Shown here: in pieces, positions 3,368 through 50,005 of the stretch
How positions within the stretch are numbered: the first letter of the stretch is position 1
Layout: each line of letters begins with the position of its first letter
DNA from: a virus
Virus record (IMG/VR): IMGVR_UViG_3300031825_000373
Location: 1 to 50,005 of that record
Strand: one strand, 5' to 3'
DNA length: 50,005 nt
Position numbers and translations under genes: made by a program
The notes under the pieces: generated by a model
The model's input: only the letters and a program-made list of their open reading frames with translations
Databases searched by the model: none
Told to the model about the DNA's origin: nothing

Positions 3368-5077
3368 ATGTCGCGGAAGAAGCGCGCCTATGAGGGTGGC
3401 TACTATTTCATCAACCAGGACCTCATCCGGTCGGGCCTGTACGAGCACACCACGGCGCTGGAGGACCCCATCTCCGAGGAGACGCTGGAGGGCCTGAACA
3501 TCGTCCAGGCGACCCCGTGGGCGATCAATGGCTGGCTGCTCGACACCATGCGTCAGGCGTACCTTGAGGGTGCCTACCTGGGCGACCTTCCGTATGCCGA
3601 CGAGGTGCCCATCCCCCGCAAGACGGATGAGGAATGGGAGGCCATGGAGGACGTCGAGAAGTCCCTGTGGAAGCAGGAGCTGGCCGACATCCACGCGATC
3701 AACGCCCGCATGATGGGCCGTCGCCACAGCTTCAACCACCGGCTCGACATCGCGCAGCAGCTGCGGGACCAGACCATCTGGTTCCCCCACTTCCTCGACT
3801 TCCGCACCCGCCTGTACCCCATGTGTCAGGACCTCCACACCCAGTCCGATGACGCGGGGCGGGCTCTGCTGCGGTTCGGAAAGGGCAAGCGCCTGGGCAA
3901 GCGTGGGCTGTACTGGCTGGCTGTACGCCTCGCCAACACCTACGGTCAGGACAAGCTGCCCTTTGACGAGCGCGTCGAGTGGGTCCGTAAGCACCATGAC
4001 CTGATCCTCGACAGCGGACGTGATCCGCTTGACGGGCAGCGGTTCTGGGCCGCGACGGACGCGAAGGGCAAGCCCGTGGCCGACGAGCCCTGGAATTTCC
4101 TGGCGACGTGCCGCGAGTGGTACGAGGCGCACCTTCTCGACGATCCCAAGGACTACGTCTCCTACCTCCCGATCCAGATGGATGGCTCCTGCAATGGGCT
4201 CCAGCATCTGTCGGCCATGGGCCGGGACCGGGTGGGTGCCACCGCGACCAACGTGGCGGCTAACACCGAGCGTCAGGACATCTACCTGATGGTGGCCGAC
4301 GTGGTGATGAAGCTGGTCAGCGAGGACGCCGTGGAAGGCAACGCCCTGGCGCACCAGTGGGTCGGGAAGATCGGCCGCAAGACCGTCAAGCGGGCCGTCA
4401 TGACGACGCCCTATGGCGTGACCGAGCGGGGCATCTCCGACCAGATCAGGAACGACGGCCACGTCAAGGACATGGACGACAAGGGCGCCGCTGCGGCTTT
4501 CCTGAGAGACAAGATCGTGCTGGCCCTTGAGCAGACCGTCGTGTCCGCCAAGACCATCATGGCCTGGATACAGGAGGTCGCGAAGCGTCTGTCCGAGGCG
4601 GACATCCCGTTCCGCTTCACCACGCCCTGCGGCTCCAAGGTCGAGCAGTCCTATGTCCAGCTCCAGAAGACCCAGGTGACGACCCTCCTGGGCAAGCTGG
4701 TGCTGTGGAAGCCTGACCGCTTCGCCGGTCTCAATGACCGCAAGCAGATGCTGGCGAGCGCCCCGAACGTCATCCATGCGTTCGACGCTGCCCATCTCAC
4801 CAAGACCGTGCTCCGCATGGTCCGCGAGGCCACCGACGAGGTGTCCTTCTCCATGATCCACGACAGCTATGGCGTCCATGCCTGCGACGTGGACCTTCTG
4901 CACCGCTGCATCCGCGAGGAGTTCGTCGCGATCTACCAGACGGACTGGCTCCAGCGGATTGAGGATGAGGTCAGGGCGTATGCCCCTGACGTCGACATCC
5001 CGAGCTATCGGGACTTCGTGACTGTGGGCGACTTCGACGTGAGCGAGTGCCTGAACAGCCCGTTTTTCTTCGCCTAG
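3368..5077 (+). CDS. T7-like RNA polymerase, catalytic part, separate ORF
   Basis: This 569-residue protein contains the polymerase domain of a single-subunit phage RNA polymerase. It opens with AYEGGYYF, matching T7 GITGGGYW just after PPKPW. It carries motif A MDGSCNGLQHLSAM with the first catalytic Asp, motif B KTVKRAVMTTPYGV with the Lys and Tyr, motif C MIHDSYGV with the second catalytic Asp, and the C-terminal foot FFFA (T7 FAFA). The DNA-reading specificity loop (about residues 415-445) differs strongly from T7, so promoters should differ. The gene has its own SD (AAAGGA at 3356-3361) and ATG 28 bases after the N-terminal ORF stops. Together the two ORFs give 839 residues, against 883 in T7. 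No catalytic residue appears to be missing. Confidence 0.93.
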   Translation: MSRKKRAYEGGYYFINQDLIRSGLYEHTTALEDPISEETLEGLNIVQATPWAINGWLLDTMRQAYLEGAYLGDLPYADEVPIPRKTDEEWEAMEDVEKSLWKQELADIHAINARMMGRRHSFNHRLDIAQQLRDQTIWFPHFLDFRTRLYPMCQDLHTQSDDAGRALLRFGKGKRLGKRGLYWLAVRLANTYGQDKLPFDERVEWVRKHHDLILDSGRDPLDGQRFWAATDAKGKPVADEPWNFLATCREWYEAHLLDDPKDYVSYLPIQMDGSCNGLQHLSAMGRDRVGATATNVAANTERQDIYLMVADVVMKLVSEDAVEGNALAHQWVGKIGRKTVKRAVMTTPYGVTERGISDQIRNDGHVKDMDDKGAAAAFLRDKIVLALEQTVVSAKTIMAWIQEVAKRLSEADIPFRFTTPCGSKVEQSYVQLQKTQVTTLLGKLVLWKPDRFAGLNDRKQMLASAPNVIHAFDAAHLTKTVLRMVREATDEVSFSMIHDSYGVHACDVDLLHRCIREEFVAIYQTDWLQRIEDEVRAYAPDVDIPSYRDFVTVGDFDVSECLNSPFFFA

Positions 5078-15570: not shown

Positions 15571-15892
15571 CGGGTGTGCTCATGACTCGAAGAGGGCCGA
15601 TGCACATCCATGTCAAGAATGCACTCTGGGCAAGAACGGTGTCCCCACGATGTGGGAACGTGAAGGGCCGAAGGCTCTCGACGTCCAGGAAGGCGGGTCC
15701 CACTACAAGGACATGCCGATCCAGCCTATCGAATACATCCTTGCCAACAACATCCCGTTCACCGAAGGCAACGTCATCAAGTACGTCTCCCGGTGGCGGA
15801 AGAAGAATGGCGTGGCTGACCTGAAGAAAGCCCGGCACATGCTTGATGTGCTCATCGAACATGAGGAGGAGCCCCAGCGTGCGGCTGGCTGA
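15557..15892 (+). CDS. DUF3310 protein with N-terminal zinc-binding segment
   Basis: A 111-residue protein. The C-terminal half is the DUF3310 motif: GGSHYKDMPIQPIEY, then VIKYVSRWRKKNG and DLKKARHMLD. The N-terminus has CDGC and CQEC, a likely zinc site. DUF3310 proteins are frequent in phages and often lie next to nucleotide metabolism genes; the biochemical role is not established. The start is TTG 15557, inside the exonuclease 3' end. Confidence 0.82.
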   Translation: MGVCDGCAHDSKRADAHPCQECTLGKNGVPTMWEREGPKALDVQEGGSHYKDMPIQPIEYILANNIPFTEGNVIKYVSRWRKKNGVADLKKARHMLDVLIEHEEEPQRAAG

Positions 15893-16208
15893 GTATCAGG
15901 AACAGACCGAGAAGTACGCCGTCTATCCCGAAAACATGGCGTTTCAGTACCTCGTCACCGGCCTCGTGGCCGAGGTGGGCGAGCTAGCCGGTCATCTCGC
16001 CAAGCGTTATCGCGGCGATGAGAACTATCGGGACCTGAAGAAGACCCACGACCTCCTCGTCAAGGAGCTGGGCGACATCCTCTGGTTCGTTGCGCGTCTG
16101 TCGGATGGCCTCGGCTATCGCCTCGACGACGTCGCCATCCTGAACCTGGAGAAGCTTAAGAGCCGCGCCGAGCGTGGCGTCCTCAAGGGAAGCGGGGACA
16201 ATCGCTGA
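15879..16208 (+). CDS. MazG-like nucleotide pyrophosphohydrolase
   Basis: A 109-residue all-helical protein with the MazG/dUTPase-like pattern EVGELAGHLAKR and, after a linker, KELGDILWFVARLSD, giving the ExxE...ExxD metal-binding set. Such enzymes hydrolyse nucleoside triphosphates to monophosphates. GTG 15879 has GAGGAGGA eight bases upstream and is preferred over the upstream ATGs. Its stop overlaps the homing endonuclease frame. It forms a nucleotide-metabolism run with the reductase and ThyX. Confidence 0.82.
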   Translation: MRLAEYQEQTEKYAVYPENMAFQYLVTGLVAEVGELAGHLAKRYRGDENYRDLKKTHDLLVKELGDILWFVARLSDGLGYRLDDVAILNLEKLKSRAERGVLKGSGDNR

Positions 16209-16606
16209 TCCGTCTTGATACAGACCTCGCGTATATCGCGGGGTTCATTGACGGTGAGGGGTGTATTTCTATTGGGTCAAATGGCTCAATATCAATATCG
16301 ATCATCAATACATCTCTGAAAACACTCGAATATATCAGGGATGCGTTTGGGTTCGGATCGGTTTCCGAGAGGAAACAGAAGGTCAATAAGACCCAATACT
16401 GCTATCGAGCCTATGGGAATAACGCTGTGATTATTCTCAAGTCTATCCTTCCCTTCTTGATCGACAAGAGGGCTCAGGCGGAAACCGCCATTGAGTTCTC
16501 TGAGGTTCGTGGACCAACCTTCATCCCTGGTGTCAGAGGCCGCCGCGCGGACCCAAACCGGGAGGCGTACATTAAGAAAATCAAGGAGTTGAAACGTGCG
16601 GCCTGA
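16205..16606 (+). CDS. Free-standing LAGLIDADG homing endonuclease
   Basis: An open frame of 133 codons with YIAGFIDGEGC near residues 10-20, the classic single LAGLIDADG motif, ending in a basic helix. The DNA is visibly more AT-rich than its neighbours. No ATG, GTG or TTG precedes the motif in frame. The only candidate start is CTG 16205, overlapping the MazG stop, with GGGGA six bases upstream. The 3' end overlaps the reductase start and supplies its SD (AAGGAG). It probably targets the neighbouring reductase or MazG locus. With a single motif it would act as a dimer. It may be under-translated. Confidence 0.78.
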   Translation: MIRLDTDLAYIAGFIDGEGCISIGSNGSISISIINTSLKTLEYIRDAFGFGSVSERKQKVNKTQYCYRAYGNNAVIILKSILPFLIDKRAQAETAIEFSEVRGPTFIPGVRGRRADPNREAYIKKIKELKRAA

Positions 16607-18626
16607 GCCGTCATTTCGAGCACAGCTAATTACCCGCAGGACATACTCAAGGCCCAAGAACGACCAGGGCACCGAGTTCGAGAGCTGGACAGAGACCGTG
16701 GACCGCGTGGTCGGTCACCAGCGCTGGCTCTGGGAGCGCGCCAAGGGTTCCCCGCTTGACGCCGTCGAGGACTACGAGCTGGGCACGCTGCGTCGCTTCA
16801 TGCTGGAGCGGAAGCTGACCACTTCGGGCCGCACCCTGTGGCTCGGCGGCACGGCTGTCGCCCAGACCCGCGAGGCGTCCCAGTTCAACTGCTCCTTCGA
16901 GCACGTCGAGACCATCCACGATGTGGTCGACGCCTTCTGGCTGCTGCTCCAGGGCTGTGGCGTCGGCGGCAAGCCCATCAACGGCATCCTCAATGGCTTC
17001 GTGAAGCCGGTGGAGGTCCAGGTCATCCGCTCCACCCGGACCATTCAGGACTGGGAGCAGGGGCGCCGTGGCCTGGAGCACAACGACGTCGGCACCTATG
17101 AGCTGGGTGGCAAGACCCACTGGCACCTCACCGTGGGCGACAGTGCAGCCGCCTGGGCGAAGGCCGCTGGTAAGCTTCTGGCGATGAAGCAGCGGGTCGA
17201 CGTGGTCGTCCTGGACTTCTCACAGGTCCGCGCCGCTGGCATCCGCCTCAAGGGCTACGGCTGGATTTCGTCCGGTGACGAGACGGTATCCAAGGCGTTC
17301 GAGGAAATCTGCAACATCCTGTCCCGCCGCGCGGGCAAGCTGCTGCGCAAGCTCGACATCCTCGACGTGATGAACTGGCTGGGCACCACCCTGTCGTCCC
17401 GGCGCTCTGCCGAGATCATGGTGATGGACGCGGCCGATCCCGAGGCCGAGGCGTTCGCCGTCGCGAAGAAGGACCACTGGGCCAACGGCCAGCCCCAGCG
17501 GGCTCAATCGAACAACAGCCTGATCTTCTACTCCAAGCCGACCAAGCTGGAGCTGAAGGGTCTCTTCCAGATGATGATGGATGCCGGTGGCTCCGAGCCC
17601 GGCTTCATCAACGGTGAGGAAGCCCTGCGTCGTGCCCCGTGGTTCAAGGGCGTCAACCCCTGTGCGGAAATCCTCCTCGGGAACAAGTCCTTCTGTAACC
17701 TCGTCGAGGTCGACATGGGCAAGTTCCTGGATGATCCGGACGGCCTCATGCGGGCGGTCTACATCGCCGCTCGGACCAACTACCGCCAGACCTGTGTGGA
17801 CCTCCGGGACGGTGTGCTCTCGGCCTCCTGGCACGAGCTGAATGAGTTCCTGCGCCTCTGTGGTGTCGGTCTCACCGGCATCGTGAAGTGGCTGGACGTC
17901 CGGAAGGTGTCTCATTCCAAGCAGGAGATCGCCGCCCGTCTGGAGGAGCTTCGATGGAATGCCCAGCGCGGCGTCAACAACATGGCCGACGCACTGGGAC
18001 TTCCGCACGCCAAGGCCGTCACCACGGTCAAACCGTCCGGCACCCTCTCGAAGATCATGGACACGACCGAGGGCGTACATCGTCCGCTCGGCAAGTACAT
18101 CTTCAACAACGTCAACTTCTCGAAGCACGATCCCCTGGTGCCCATGCTTGTGGACGCTGGCTACCGTGTCTTCGACAACCCGTATGACACCACTGGAGCC
18201 GTTGTGACCCTCCCGGTTGCTTACGAAGACGTGGCGTTCTCTCGGGTGGAGAAGAATGGCGTGGTACTGGAGGTGAACACCGAGAGCGCCATTGAGCAGC
18301 TGGAGCGCTACAAGCTCCTGATGCAGAACTACGTGGACCACAACTGCTCTATCACGGTCAGCTATGACCCGAGCGAGGTCCCGGAGATCGTCGAGTGGCT
18401 GTACGAAAACTGGGACACCTACGTGGGCGTGTCCTGGCTGTATCGGAACGATCCGACGAAGACGGCAGAAGATTTAGGATACCCTTATCTTCCTCAACAG
18501 GTTGTAACGGAGGACGAATACAAGTCCTACGTCGCAACAATTCTTCCGGTGAGCCTTGACGGTGCTAACTCTTTTGAGGAGCTTCAGGACCGTGAGTGTG
18601 CTACCGGAGCGTGCCCAATCCGTTGA
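16596..18626 (+). CDS. nrdJ: Class II (adenosylcobalamin-dependent) ribonucleotide reductase
   Basis: A 676-residue monomeric-type ribonucleotide reductase making deoxynucleotides. The active site is visible: the first redox cysteine in FNCSF near residue 97, the finger-loop NPCAEI near 353 with the radical Cys and Glu, the second redox cysteine in SFCNL near 365, and the C-terminal CX4C pair in CATGACP. No allosteric ATP-cone is evident. Class II enzymes need vitamin B12. GTG 16596 follows an SD lying in the homing endonuclease. The last about 170 bases are less GC-rich than the rest and overlap an endonuclease VII-like gene. Confidence 0.9.
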   Translation: MRPEPSFRAQLITRRTYSRPKNDQGTEFESWTETVDRVVGHQRWLWERAKGSPLDAVEDYELGTLRRFMLERKLTTSGRTLWLGGTAVAQTREASQFNCSFEHVETIHDVVDAFWLLLQGCGVGGKPINGILNGFVKPVEVQVIRSTRTIQDWEQGRRGLEHNDVGTYELGGKTHWHLTVGDSAAAWAKAAGKLLAMKQRVDVVVLDFSQVRAAGIRLKGYGWISSGDETVSKAFEEICNILSRRAGKLLRKLDILDVMNWLGTTLSSRRSAEIMVMDAADPEAEAFAVAKKDHWANGQPQRAQSNNSLIFYSKPTKLELKGLFQMMMDAGGSEPGFINGEEALRRAPWFKGVNPCAEILLGNKSFCNLVEVDMGKFLDDPDGLMRAVYIAARTNYRQTCVDLRDGVLSASWHELNEFLRLCGVGLTGIVKWLDVRKVSHSKQEIAARLEELRWNAQRGVNNMADALGLPHAKAVTTVKPSGTLSKIMDTTEGVHRPLGKYIFNNVNFSKHDPLVPMLVDAGYRVFDNPYDTTGAVVTLPVAYEDVAFSRVEKNGVVLEVNTESAIEQLERYKLLMQNYVDHNCSITVSYDPSEVPEIVEWLYENWDTYVGVSWLYRNDPTKTAEDLGYPYLPQQVVTEDEYKSYVATILPVSLDGANSFEELQDRECATGACPIR

Positions 18627-25153: not shown

Positions 25154-25229
25154 TGCCAAGTAGCTCAGTTGGTAGAGCAGGTGACTGTTAATCACCGGGT
25201 CGGAGGTTCGATCCCTCCCTTGGCAGCCA
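25154..25229 (+). tRNA. tRNA-Asn(GTT)
   Basis: A complete cloverleaf: acceptor TGCCAAG/CTTGGCA, D-arm GCTC...GAGC, anticodon stem GGTGA/TCACC with loop CTGTTAA, T-arm GGAGG/CCTCC with TTCGATC, discriminator G and encoded CCA (25227-25229). It sits between scaffold and capsid genes on the same strand, so it is embedded in the structural transcript. Confidence 0.96.
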
Positions 25230-47578: not shown

Positions 47579-47629
47579 CGCCGAAACGGAGCCCTTGCGC
47601 CGTCGCGTGGGAATGGTCTCCCGCGCCTG

Positions 47630-47842
47630 ATGAGGCAGACCCCTCGACATCACCTGTCGCCAACCGCGAGGCTCGACGTGAAAGAGCAAGAGGACCGGCC
47701 GCGTCACCTGAGGCGCTACACCGAGACCTATCTGGGGCCGAAAGGCCGCCTGCATCCCTATGACCGAGTTGGGTTATGGGCAGTCGCGTTCCACCTACTT
47801 CTGATGGTGGCTATTTTTTGCCTCCTACTGCCTAGGGGGTGA
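47630..47842 (+). CDS. Small early membrane protein
   Basis: Up to 70 residues with a C-terminal transmembrane helix (GLWAVAFHLLLMVAIFCLLL). GTG 47678 has GAGG upstream and may be the real start, giving 54 residues. Motif B overlaps its last codons. No family is recognised. Confidence 0.45.
   Translation: MRQTPRHHLSPTARLDVKEQEDRPRHLRRYTETYLGPKGRLHPYDRVGLWAVAFHLLLMVAIFCLLLPRG
47812..47840 (+). promoter_or_regulatory. Motif B copy upstream of immunity region
   Basis: TATTTTTTGC, CTCCTACTGCCTA (47822-47834), then GGGGGT. This is the best match to a T7-type layout, with a G-run at the likely +1 (47835). Confidence 0.7.
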
Positions 47843-48832: not shown

Positions 48833-50005
48833 ATGACTGTCCAGCTCTACAAGCGGCCCAACAGCCCCTACTGGTACTTCGACCTTGCCGTGAAGGGGGT
48901 GCGTAAGCGCACCTCGACCAAGCGCACGGTGAAGCGTGAGGCCCAGCAGGTGGCCGAGGAGGCGCTACGGCGTGCCCTCGACAAGTCTCAGCTTGGCCGC
49001 GATCTCCAGCAAATCACAGTGAAGGATGCGATTTACAACTACTACCTCGCAAAGCGCCGGGGACAGTTGGATGACCGTCGCTACAAGGATTTGGAGTACG
49101 TGGCCCGCAAGGTGCTCGGGGAGGTGAAGGGCATCAAGGGCCTGCGCTCCGGCATCCACATGGATGAGCTGACCCACAACATGCTGGTGCAGTATCGCAC
49201 CGCTCGGATGGGTGAGAAGGCCGCCATCCGAACCATCGATCATGAGATGCGGCTGCTCTCTGCGGCCTATCACATGGTGGCCGGGGACTTCCTCGTGACG
49301 GCGGGTCTCAAGTTCCCCATTGAGCGTCCCAAGGGCCAGCCTCGGTTCCTCACAGACGACGAAGAGACCGCCCTTCTGGCCGAACTGAACCCGAACCGGG
49401 CTATCCCCATGTCCCGCAAGGGAAAACCGGGGAGGTCCTATTTTCTGCCTCCTACTGCCCAAGCGTTTCACCAGCGGCAGGACAACTACGACCTCGTGGT
49501 GATGCTGCTGGACACCGGGTGCCGCTACAACGAGATCGCCCAGCTCACCTGGGACTTGGTCGACGCGGTGGACTGGCAGTGGCTCCATATCTTCCGCTGG
49601 AAGGTGGGCAACGAGGGCAAGCTGGCCATCACCAACCGGATGCGTGAAGTGCTCCAGCGGCGGTTCAAGGACCGTCGCAACAGCCACTACGTGTTCCCCG
49701 GCTGGAAGCGCGACACCAAGGAGGATGAGCCCCGTCAGTCCACCCTCGCCATCCGCAGGGCCATGGAGAAGATCGGGATCAACCACCCGGCCAAGGTGAA
49801 GCGGTTCGGAAGGCGTGACGTGCGGTCCCTGAGGGACACCTTCGCGTCCAAGCTCCGCATGAAGGGCATGAGCCTCGACCGGCTCCAGAAGCTCCTCGGG
49901 CACGCCTCGCCTGAGATGACCCAGAAGTACGCCAACCTCACCGTGGACCACGCCTCGACTGAGGCAGCGGCCATCCTCAACAGCCTGAACGGAGACACCC
50001 AGTGA
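48833..50005 (+). CDS. int: Tyrosine-family integrase
   Basis: 390 residues. The N-terminal part has an Arm-type DNA-binding segment (YKRPNSPYWYFDLAVKGVRK) and a SAM-like core-binding domain. The catalytic domain shows the first Arg in LLDTGCRYNEIAQL near residue 229, a Lys in FRWKVGNEGK, box II RSLRDTFAS near 328, LGHASPEMTQKY near 353 and the nucleophile Tyr in QKYANL. At box II, Arg stands where His is usual. It would recombine attP with the tRNA-His gene. The gene ends exactly at the window edge; attR should follow. Confidence 0.93.
   Translation: MTVQLYKRPNSPYWYFDLAVKGVRKRTSTKRTVKREAQQVAEEALRRALDKSQLGRDLQQITVKDAIYNYYLAKRRGQLDDRRYKDLEYVARKVLGEVKGIKGLRSGIHMDELTHNMLVQYRTARMGEKAAIRTIDHEMRLLSAAYHMVAGDFLVTAGLKFPIERPKGQPRFLTDDEETALLAELNPNRAIPMSRKGKPGRSYFLPPTAQAFHQRQDNYDLVVMLLDTGCRYNEIAQLTWDLVDAVDWQWLHIFRWKVGNEGKLAITNRMREVLQRRFKDRRNSHYVFPGWKRDTKEDEPRQSTLAIRRAMEKIGINHPAKVKRFGRRDVRSLRDTFASKLRMKGMSLDRLQKLLGHASPEMTQKYANLTVDHASTEAAAILNSLNGDTQ
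49439..49466 (+). promoter_or_regulatory. Motif B copy inside the integrase gene
   Basis: TATTTTCTGC followed by CTCCTACTGCCCA (49449-49461), one mismatch from the core. In the unintegrated phage it would point across attP toward the RNA polymerase genes. Confidence 0.5.

Follow-up and report, generated by a model that had tools for sequence, protein, structure and literature searches.

The window analysed here, the whole 50,005-nucleotide stretch of a virus record, carries between a mazG-like gene and a class II ribonucleotide reductase (RNR) gene what is, judging by its sequence, a genuine and intact LAGLIDADG endonuclease gene whose product is predicted to cleave DNA. We consider it probable that this is a free-standing homing endonuclease gene (HEG) encoding a single-motif, homodimeric protein, that genes of its kind home into the 5' ends of class II RNR genes, and that the window copy is translated from a CTG codon. 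The interest of the gene lies in its membership of a recurrent clade located where two genes overlap, within the opening codons of an essential gene with which it appears to trade start sites.

The endonuclease gene and its product

The frame is open from stop to stop over 16160-16606 on the plus strand and encloses the motif YIAGFIDGEGC, from which a preliminary description of the window had recognized a LAGLIDADG endonuclease; Pfam, phrog_5046, PDB profile and AlphaFold/Foldseek results all agree with that identification. The Pfam families LAGLIDADG_3 and LAGLIDADG_1 match at E 1.9e-6 and 5.4e-5, with scores of 28.5 and 24.4 bits that exceed the curated cut-offs of 22.5 and 23.1 bits, phrog_5046 matches at E 5e-21, and a profile of the clade described below finds I-MsoI (E 1e-10), I-CvuI (3e-8) and also I-CreI in the PDB. 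The AlphaFold model (pLDDT 85.3, pTM 0.80) has its helices and strands in the expected order, alpha-beta-beta-alpha-beta-beta-alpha, and Foldseek aligns it to I-CvuI, I-MsoI and I-CreI with a probability of 1.00 and TM scores mostly of 0.6-0.7. The acidic residue of the motif, E18, is invariant across the clade, and a single motif in 133 residues implies, by analogy with I-CreI, that the protein would act as a homodimer. Pfam gives no match to the HNH domain of the MobE family anywhere in the endonuclease. The phrog_5046 label, "HNH endonuclease", covers this LAGLIDADG family and is repeated in several phage records; it appears to be an annotation slip.

In composition the frame stands apart from its surroundings, with 48% G+C as compared to 61-62% for mazG, RNR and the whole window, and a GC3 of 0.58 as compared to 0.82 in mazG and RNR alike. 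Shuffles of the stretch remained free of stops in 27 of 20,000 cases, and the window copy differs from its relatives by about 0.43, 0.33 and 0.70 at codon positions 1, 2 and 3, third-position differences being roughly twice those at second positions. A chance open frame is ruled out by the homology and this codon-position pattern. Of 33 residues on which the other clade members agree throughout, two are changed in the window copy (1-4 in the others), and the protein seems to be without visible decay. The preliminary description had named a frame disrupted in all relatives as the observation that would count against the gene; reading frames are intact in all relatives of the clade.

The neighbouring genes overlap the endonuclease gene at both ends (Table 1). 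For mazG, the mechanically called open reading frame starts at TTG 15843, and GTG 15879, which is preceded by GAGGAGG, is the likelier start. As had been noticed, the 3' end of the endonuclease gene supplies the Shine-Dalgarno (SD) sequence of the RNR gene, the body of which picks up again at P-S-F-R-A-Q-L-I-T-R-R.

Table 1. Features of the mazG-endonuclease-RNR junction, in window coordinates
Feature	Position	Strand	Basis or score
mazG-like pyrophosphohydrolase gene, product ending ..GSGDNR and stop	15879..16208	+	Pfam MazG, E 2.7e-7
Predicted RNA hairpin enclosing GGGGA and CTG	16183..16218	+	-11.9 kcal/mol, z -1.6 (modest)
SD-like GGGGA, 6 nt before CTG	16194..16198	+	Sequence, anti-SD duplex
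Proposed relic of the old RNR start, GGG ACA ATC GCT GAT CCG TCT (x-T-I-A-D-P-S)	16195..16215	+	
CTG, proposed start codon, overlapping the mazG stop TGA (16206-16208) as CTGA	16205..16207	+	
LAGLIDADG homing endonuclease gene, free-standing, 133 aa, single motif, I-CreI/I-MsoI type	16205..16606	+	
9-bp hairpin in the DLAYIAGF codons, 18 nt after CTG	16223..16245	+	-14.7 kcal/mol, z -4.65
AAGGAG, K-E codons of the endonuclease gene and SD of RNR, 7 nt before GTG 16596	16583..16588	+	
Class II RNR gene, GTG start within the endonuclease gene, 11-nt overlap	16596..18626	+	Pfam RNR_Alpha, Ribonuc_red_lgC

Relatives and their association with RNR genes

Relatives were collected by scans of viral contigs, and those 45-52% identical to the window endonuclease form a clade comprising, in our locus numbering, L001 (its contig is also L053), L079 (also L129), L125, L126, L127 (with a near-copy, L128) and L130. 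A class II RNR gene lies directly downstream of the endonuclease gene in every member, the window included, and its start overlaps the endonuclease gene by 11 nt (window, L125, L126), 31 nt (L079), 41 nt (L130), 65 nt (L127) or 83 nt (L001). The upstream gene varies, being mazG in the window and L001, and open reading frames of 159 aa in L079, 60 aa in L125 and L126, 71 aa in L127 and 152 aa in L130. Since RNR is the constant neighbour and the upstream gene is not, the target of the endonuclease is most likely the 5' end of the RNR gene. No named phage with a clade endonuclease beside RNR was found among the matches listed, and bacterial and archaeal genomes yielded just four distant relatives, at 29-36% identity.

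On a tree of 91 RNR proteins, seven rows of which have the endonuclease, its presence needs six changes, at least five of them forced by well-supported branches. L001, which has the gene, and L057, which lacks it, are sisters with a support of 100 and short branches. L001 and L079 are 41% identical in the endonuclease and 78% in RNR, and the window and L001 50% and 63.5%, respectively, so that endonuclease identity is decoupled from RNR identity. The picture is that of a free-standing HEG, with patchy presence at a fixed site and empty sites in close relatives.

The preliminary description had regarded free-standing LAGLIDADG genes as unusual in T7-like phages. This view finds little support: in addition to the RNR-linked clade, relatives are common in viral contigs, and at least ten of them, 30-37% identical, mark a second place of repeated insertion, immediately ahead of a T7-type 5'-3' exonuclease gene (L029, L039, L138-L140, L145, L146, L148, L149, L155, L159, L174).

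An uninterrupted site and the insertion junctions

The preliminary description had proposed that the junction be compared with relatives lacking the gene, and L057 provides such an empty site. The uninterrupted sequence there is ..GGTGACAACCGCTAA/TCCATCTCTTCG, of which ..GGTGACAACCGCTAA is the end of mazG, and RNR starts within this mazG end, as it does in L055 and, with other codons, in L073. The L057 RNR gene begins ATG GTG ACA ACC GCT AAT CCA TCT CTT CGT (M V T T A N P S L R). In L001 the endonuclease gene begins GTGACGACCGCTAAC, read as GTG ACG ACC GCT AAC GCA TAC or (M) T T A N A Y, and RNR resumes at CCCTCCCTTCGG, CCC TCC CTT CGG or P S L R, with a new ATG at 1164 within the endonuclease gene. 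The comparison thus places the insertion between the RNR codons for N and P, and by this alignment the L001 endonuclease gene opens with five codons that are the former RNR start. What the pair shows, as we read the sequences, is that the endonuclease gene took the RNR start region and that RNR restarts in the endonuclease 3' end. The earlier placement of the gene ahead of the reductase is right in that it lies directly upstream, and understated in that the insertion is inside the first codons of RNR. This capture of the start is seen in one close pair, L057 and L001, with a weaker parallel in L079, whose endonuclease start AGGAAATAAATGACAACA resembles AGGAAACACATGACAACA, the RNR start of its sister L087; lineages beyond L001 and L079 are without a close empty relative.

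In the window mazG ends AGC GGG GAC AAT CGC TGA, and both RNR starts of L055 and L057 are lost, ATGG having become GCGG and the former start GTG (in the mazG sequence GGTGAC) being GGG. In the former RNR frame the left flank translates as x-T-I-A-D-P-S and then stops, the counterpart in the L057 RNR gene being GTG ACA ACC GCT AAT CCA TCT or V-T-T-A-N-P-S, and on the right RNR resumes as P-E-P-S-F-R-A-Q. Because the first part of this putative relic also codes for mazG, only TCCGTCT is independent of it. With the old RNR start codon lost and the endonuclease in another frame, CTG (or ATC 16208) is what is left as a start. The window flanks share CTGATCCGTCTT (16205-16216) and CTGAGCCGTCAT (16603-16614), identical at 10 of 12 positions; a pair as good arises in about 9% of shuffles when the register is free, and as a target-site duplication the repeat is suggestive only, being insignificant unless the register is fixed beforehand. 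We infer that the window insertion came about as the L001 insertion did. A search of the loci with a degenerate RNR 5' motif, a pattern that proved too strict, gave no match. L085, which has no endonuclease, carries TTG at the mazG stop (cgTTGA, 3763-3766), where the window has CTG, and its RNR itself appears to start at this TTG.

The start codon

The preliminary description had stated that the frame lacks ATG, GTG and TTG. This is correct from the preceding in-frame stop up to YIAGFIDGEGC and not beyond, the first in-frame GTG being at 16427 and TTG at 16457 and 16589; since all of these follow the catalytic motif, they cannot start a functional endonuclease. CTG 16205 would be the sole plausible start, with ATC 16208 as the alternative, and its overlap with the mazG stop and the SD-like GGGGA are present as described. 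The CTG and its SD-like element occupy the position homologous to the starts of the relatives, which fall 6-12 residues before the same Tyr. The GGGGA/anti-SD duplex (-7.0 kcal/mol, as compared to -8.0 for the RNR SD) is stronger than in most window genes checked. Within the clade the start is GTG in L001, ATG in L079, L125, L126 and L130, and TTG in L127. Its distance from the upstream stop is -4 in the window (CTGA) and in L126 (ATGA), -14 in L001, -1 in L125, 0 in L130, +1 in L127 and +17 in L079. Starts that overlap the upstream stop or lie within 1 nt of it, in five of six lineages, are the rule in the clade and make translational coupling probable; coupling at stop/start overlaps is an established phenomenon (PMC6728339). 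The stable 9-bp hairpin downstream of CTG recurs in L130 and, imperfectly, in L079, three of the six lineages in all, and none was seen by eye in L001, L125 and L127.

In E. coli, initiation at CUG reaches 0.86% of that at AUG, and CUG accounts for 0.024% of bacterial starts (PMC11497404); it is so weak and rare that the window copy may be hardly expressed. Early decay, in which the insertion removed an ordinary start or mutation turned it into CTG, leaving the endonuclease practically silent, could account for this, and we regard it as unlikely. It would fit the weakness of CUG, below 1% of AUG activity (PMC11497404), the degeneration that is the rule after fixation in the invade-degrade-lose cycle of homing endonucleases (PMC13405050), and the singularity of the window copy: of approximately 80 family members scanned (one truncated at a contig end excluded), all others show a canonical start before the motif, that of L150 being 38 codons away, and only the window has no ATG, GTG or TTG there. 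Against it, 133 of 133 codons are open, the catalytic residues are kept, conserved sites show no excess of changes, the SD-like element is well spaced, and CTGA lies where L126 has its ATGA, although a very recent loss would look identical.

A sequencing or assembly error, base 16205 being miscalled in a real ATG, GTG or TTG so that the gene is an ordinary free-standing HEG, strikes us as quite improbable. The window comes from a single metagenome-derived virus record, an exact 32-base search for near-identical sequence found no sibling contig, and the TTG of L085 lies in the same place, but the CGC in question is the Arg codon of mazG and is the same in L001, L055 and L057 (CGCTAA), so that nothing suggests a miscall. 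A fusion of MazG to the endonuclease, made by a programmed frameshift at the mazG 3' end, might be read from the frame being open back to 16160, inside mazG, but is very improbable: the window and L001 differ in their offset to mazG, L001 possesses a GTG of its own, genes other than mazG precede the remaining relatives, and there is no in-frame X-XXY-YYZ heptamer within 16160-16208. LAGLIDADG proteins occur most often in introns and inteins. An intron- or intein-encoded endonuclease, to which this background and the frequent inteins of RNR genes (PMC3653736, PMC10448857) would lend weight, is scarcely credible here, since the endonuclease is a separate reading frame with its own stop, RNR has a different frame and an SD and GTG of its own, and an Rfam scan found no group I intron at the locus.

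A proposed route of insertion and expression

In the scheme that we favour, that of a free-standing HEG, homing would be directed at class II RNR genes in T7-like and related phages. The endonuclease gene would insert within the first codons of RNR. It would thereby come to be initiated from the RNR start region, which overlaps the upstream gene's stop codon, and RNR would restart from a ribosome-binding site and start codon within the endonuclease 3' end. The product would then cleave the RNR 5' end of co-infecting phages where it is uninterrupted, and repair would copy the gene in. In the window, ribosomes finishing mazG would reinitiate at the CTG of CTGA at low frequency, probably with low output, and the predicted hairpin over the SD-like element and CTG would heighten the dependence on mazG translation. 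By analogy with T4 mobE, limited translation through reinitiation is likely, and it is plausible that the weak start limits toxicity (PMC2988022); the weak start may be adaptive or a by-product of insertion. A tentative extension, about which we are rather doubtful, is that the mobile cassette begins at the conserved LAY..GF without a start of its own, borrowing the start region of the invaded RNR gene and donating a ribosome-binding site and start codon in return. If so, an ill-fitting borrowed frame would lead to near-cognate starts such as CTG, and the HEG would have a splicing-free route into the coding sequence of an essential gene.

Relation to known systems

The I-MsoI, I-CvuI and I-CreI endonucleases are encoded by group I introns in organellar rRNA genes. 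The window endonuclease resembles them in fold (by model and profile), in the acidic residue of the motif (E18) and in the K of LPYLIEKK, and differs in being free-standing and in a phage. Isolates that carry members of phrog_5046 (Gordonia Bibwit, Mycobacterium Skinny, CcrRogue) are actinobacteriophages and Caulobacter and Sphingobium phages; their proteins, annotated as LAGLIDADG or "HNH", belong to the same family, but they are about 22-35% identical and the features named at the matches are genes for methyltransferases or capsid proteins, with no RNR. RNR genes are already recognized as hot spots at which introns, inteins and HEGs occur (PMC3653736, PMC10448857). A close parallel in arrangement is MobE of the T-even phages and Aeh1, likewise a free-standing endonuclease beside or in an RNR gene (PMC2988022, PMC3653736), and in T4 the mobE AUG overlaps the nrdA stop, with coupling proposed as a brake that limits MobE (PMC2988022). 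MobE is, however, an HNH enzyme associated with class Ia nrdA/nrdB, whereas the window endonuclease is of the LAGLIDADG type and lies at a class II RNR gene; mobE has an AUG start (UAAUGA) where the window has CTG, and the Aeh1 mobE splits nrdA in mid-gene where here only the first RNR codons are displaced. The nrdA intein of ICP1 gp203 is also a LAGLIDADG endonuclease targeting an RNR gene (PMC10448857), but it is in frame and removed by protein splicing, whereas the window gene is separate and has its own stop. A podovirus RNR gene among our loci (L265, 1495-4572; MW202615.1) has approximately 1 kb of extra in-frame sequence, which is probably an intein.

Neither a free-standing LAGLIDADG clade at class II RNR genes nor start capture was found in the openly accessible papers that were searched. 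The usual statement is that free-standing homing endonucleases keep to intergenic sites, since splicing cannot remove them (PMC13405050), and the scheme above offers a testable account of how a selfish gene without splicing could enter coding sequence with its expression capped. With its near-cognate CTG at a CTGA overlap, the window would add a natural example of such a start to a family whose other scanned members start ordinarily.

The phage and other features of the window

A single-subunit RNA polymerase at 3368-5077 (E 2e-111), a T7-type terminase and a nozzle protein mark the phage, on gene content, as T7-like. A Phage_integrase gene lies at the right end (48833-50005, plus strand, E 6.6e-19), and integrase and polymerase together suggest that this is probably a temperate T7-like phage. 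The plus strand also carries a tRNA-Asn(GTT) at 25154-25229, between structural genes, and, near the right end and upstream of the open reading frames leading to the integrase, a type II hammerhead ribozyme at 47579-47644 (Rfam RF02276, 48.3 bits, cut-off 37).
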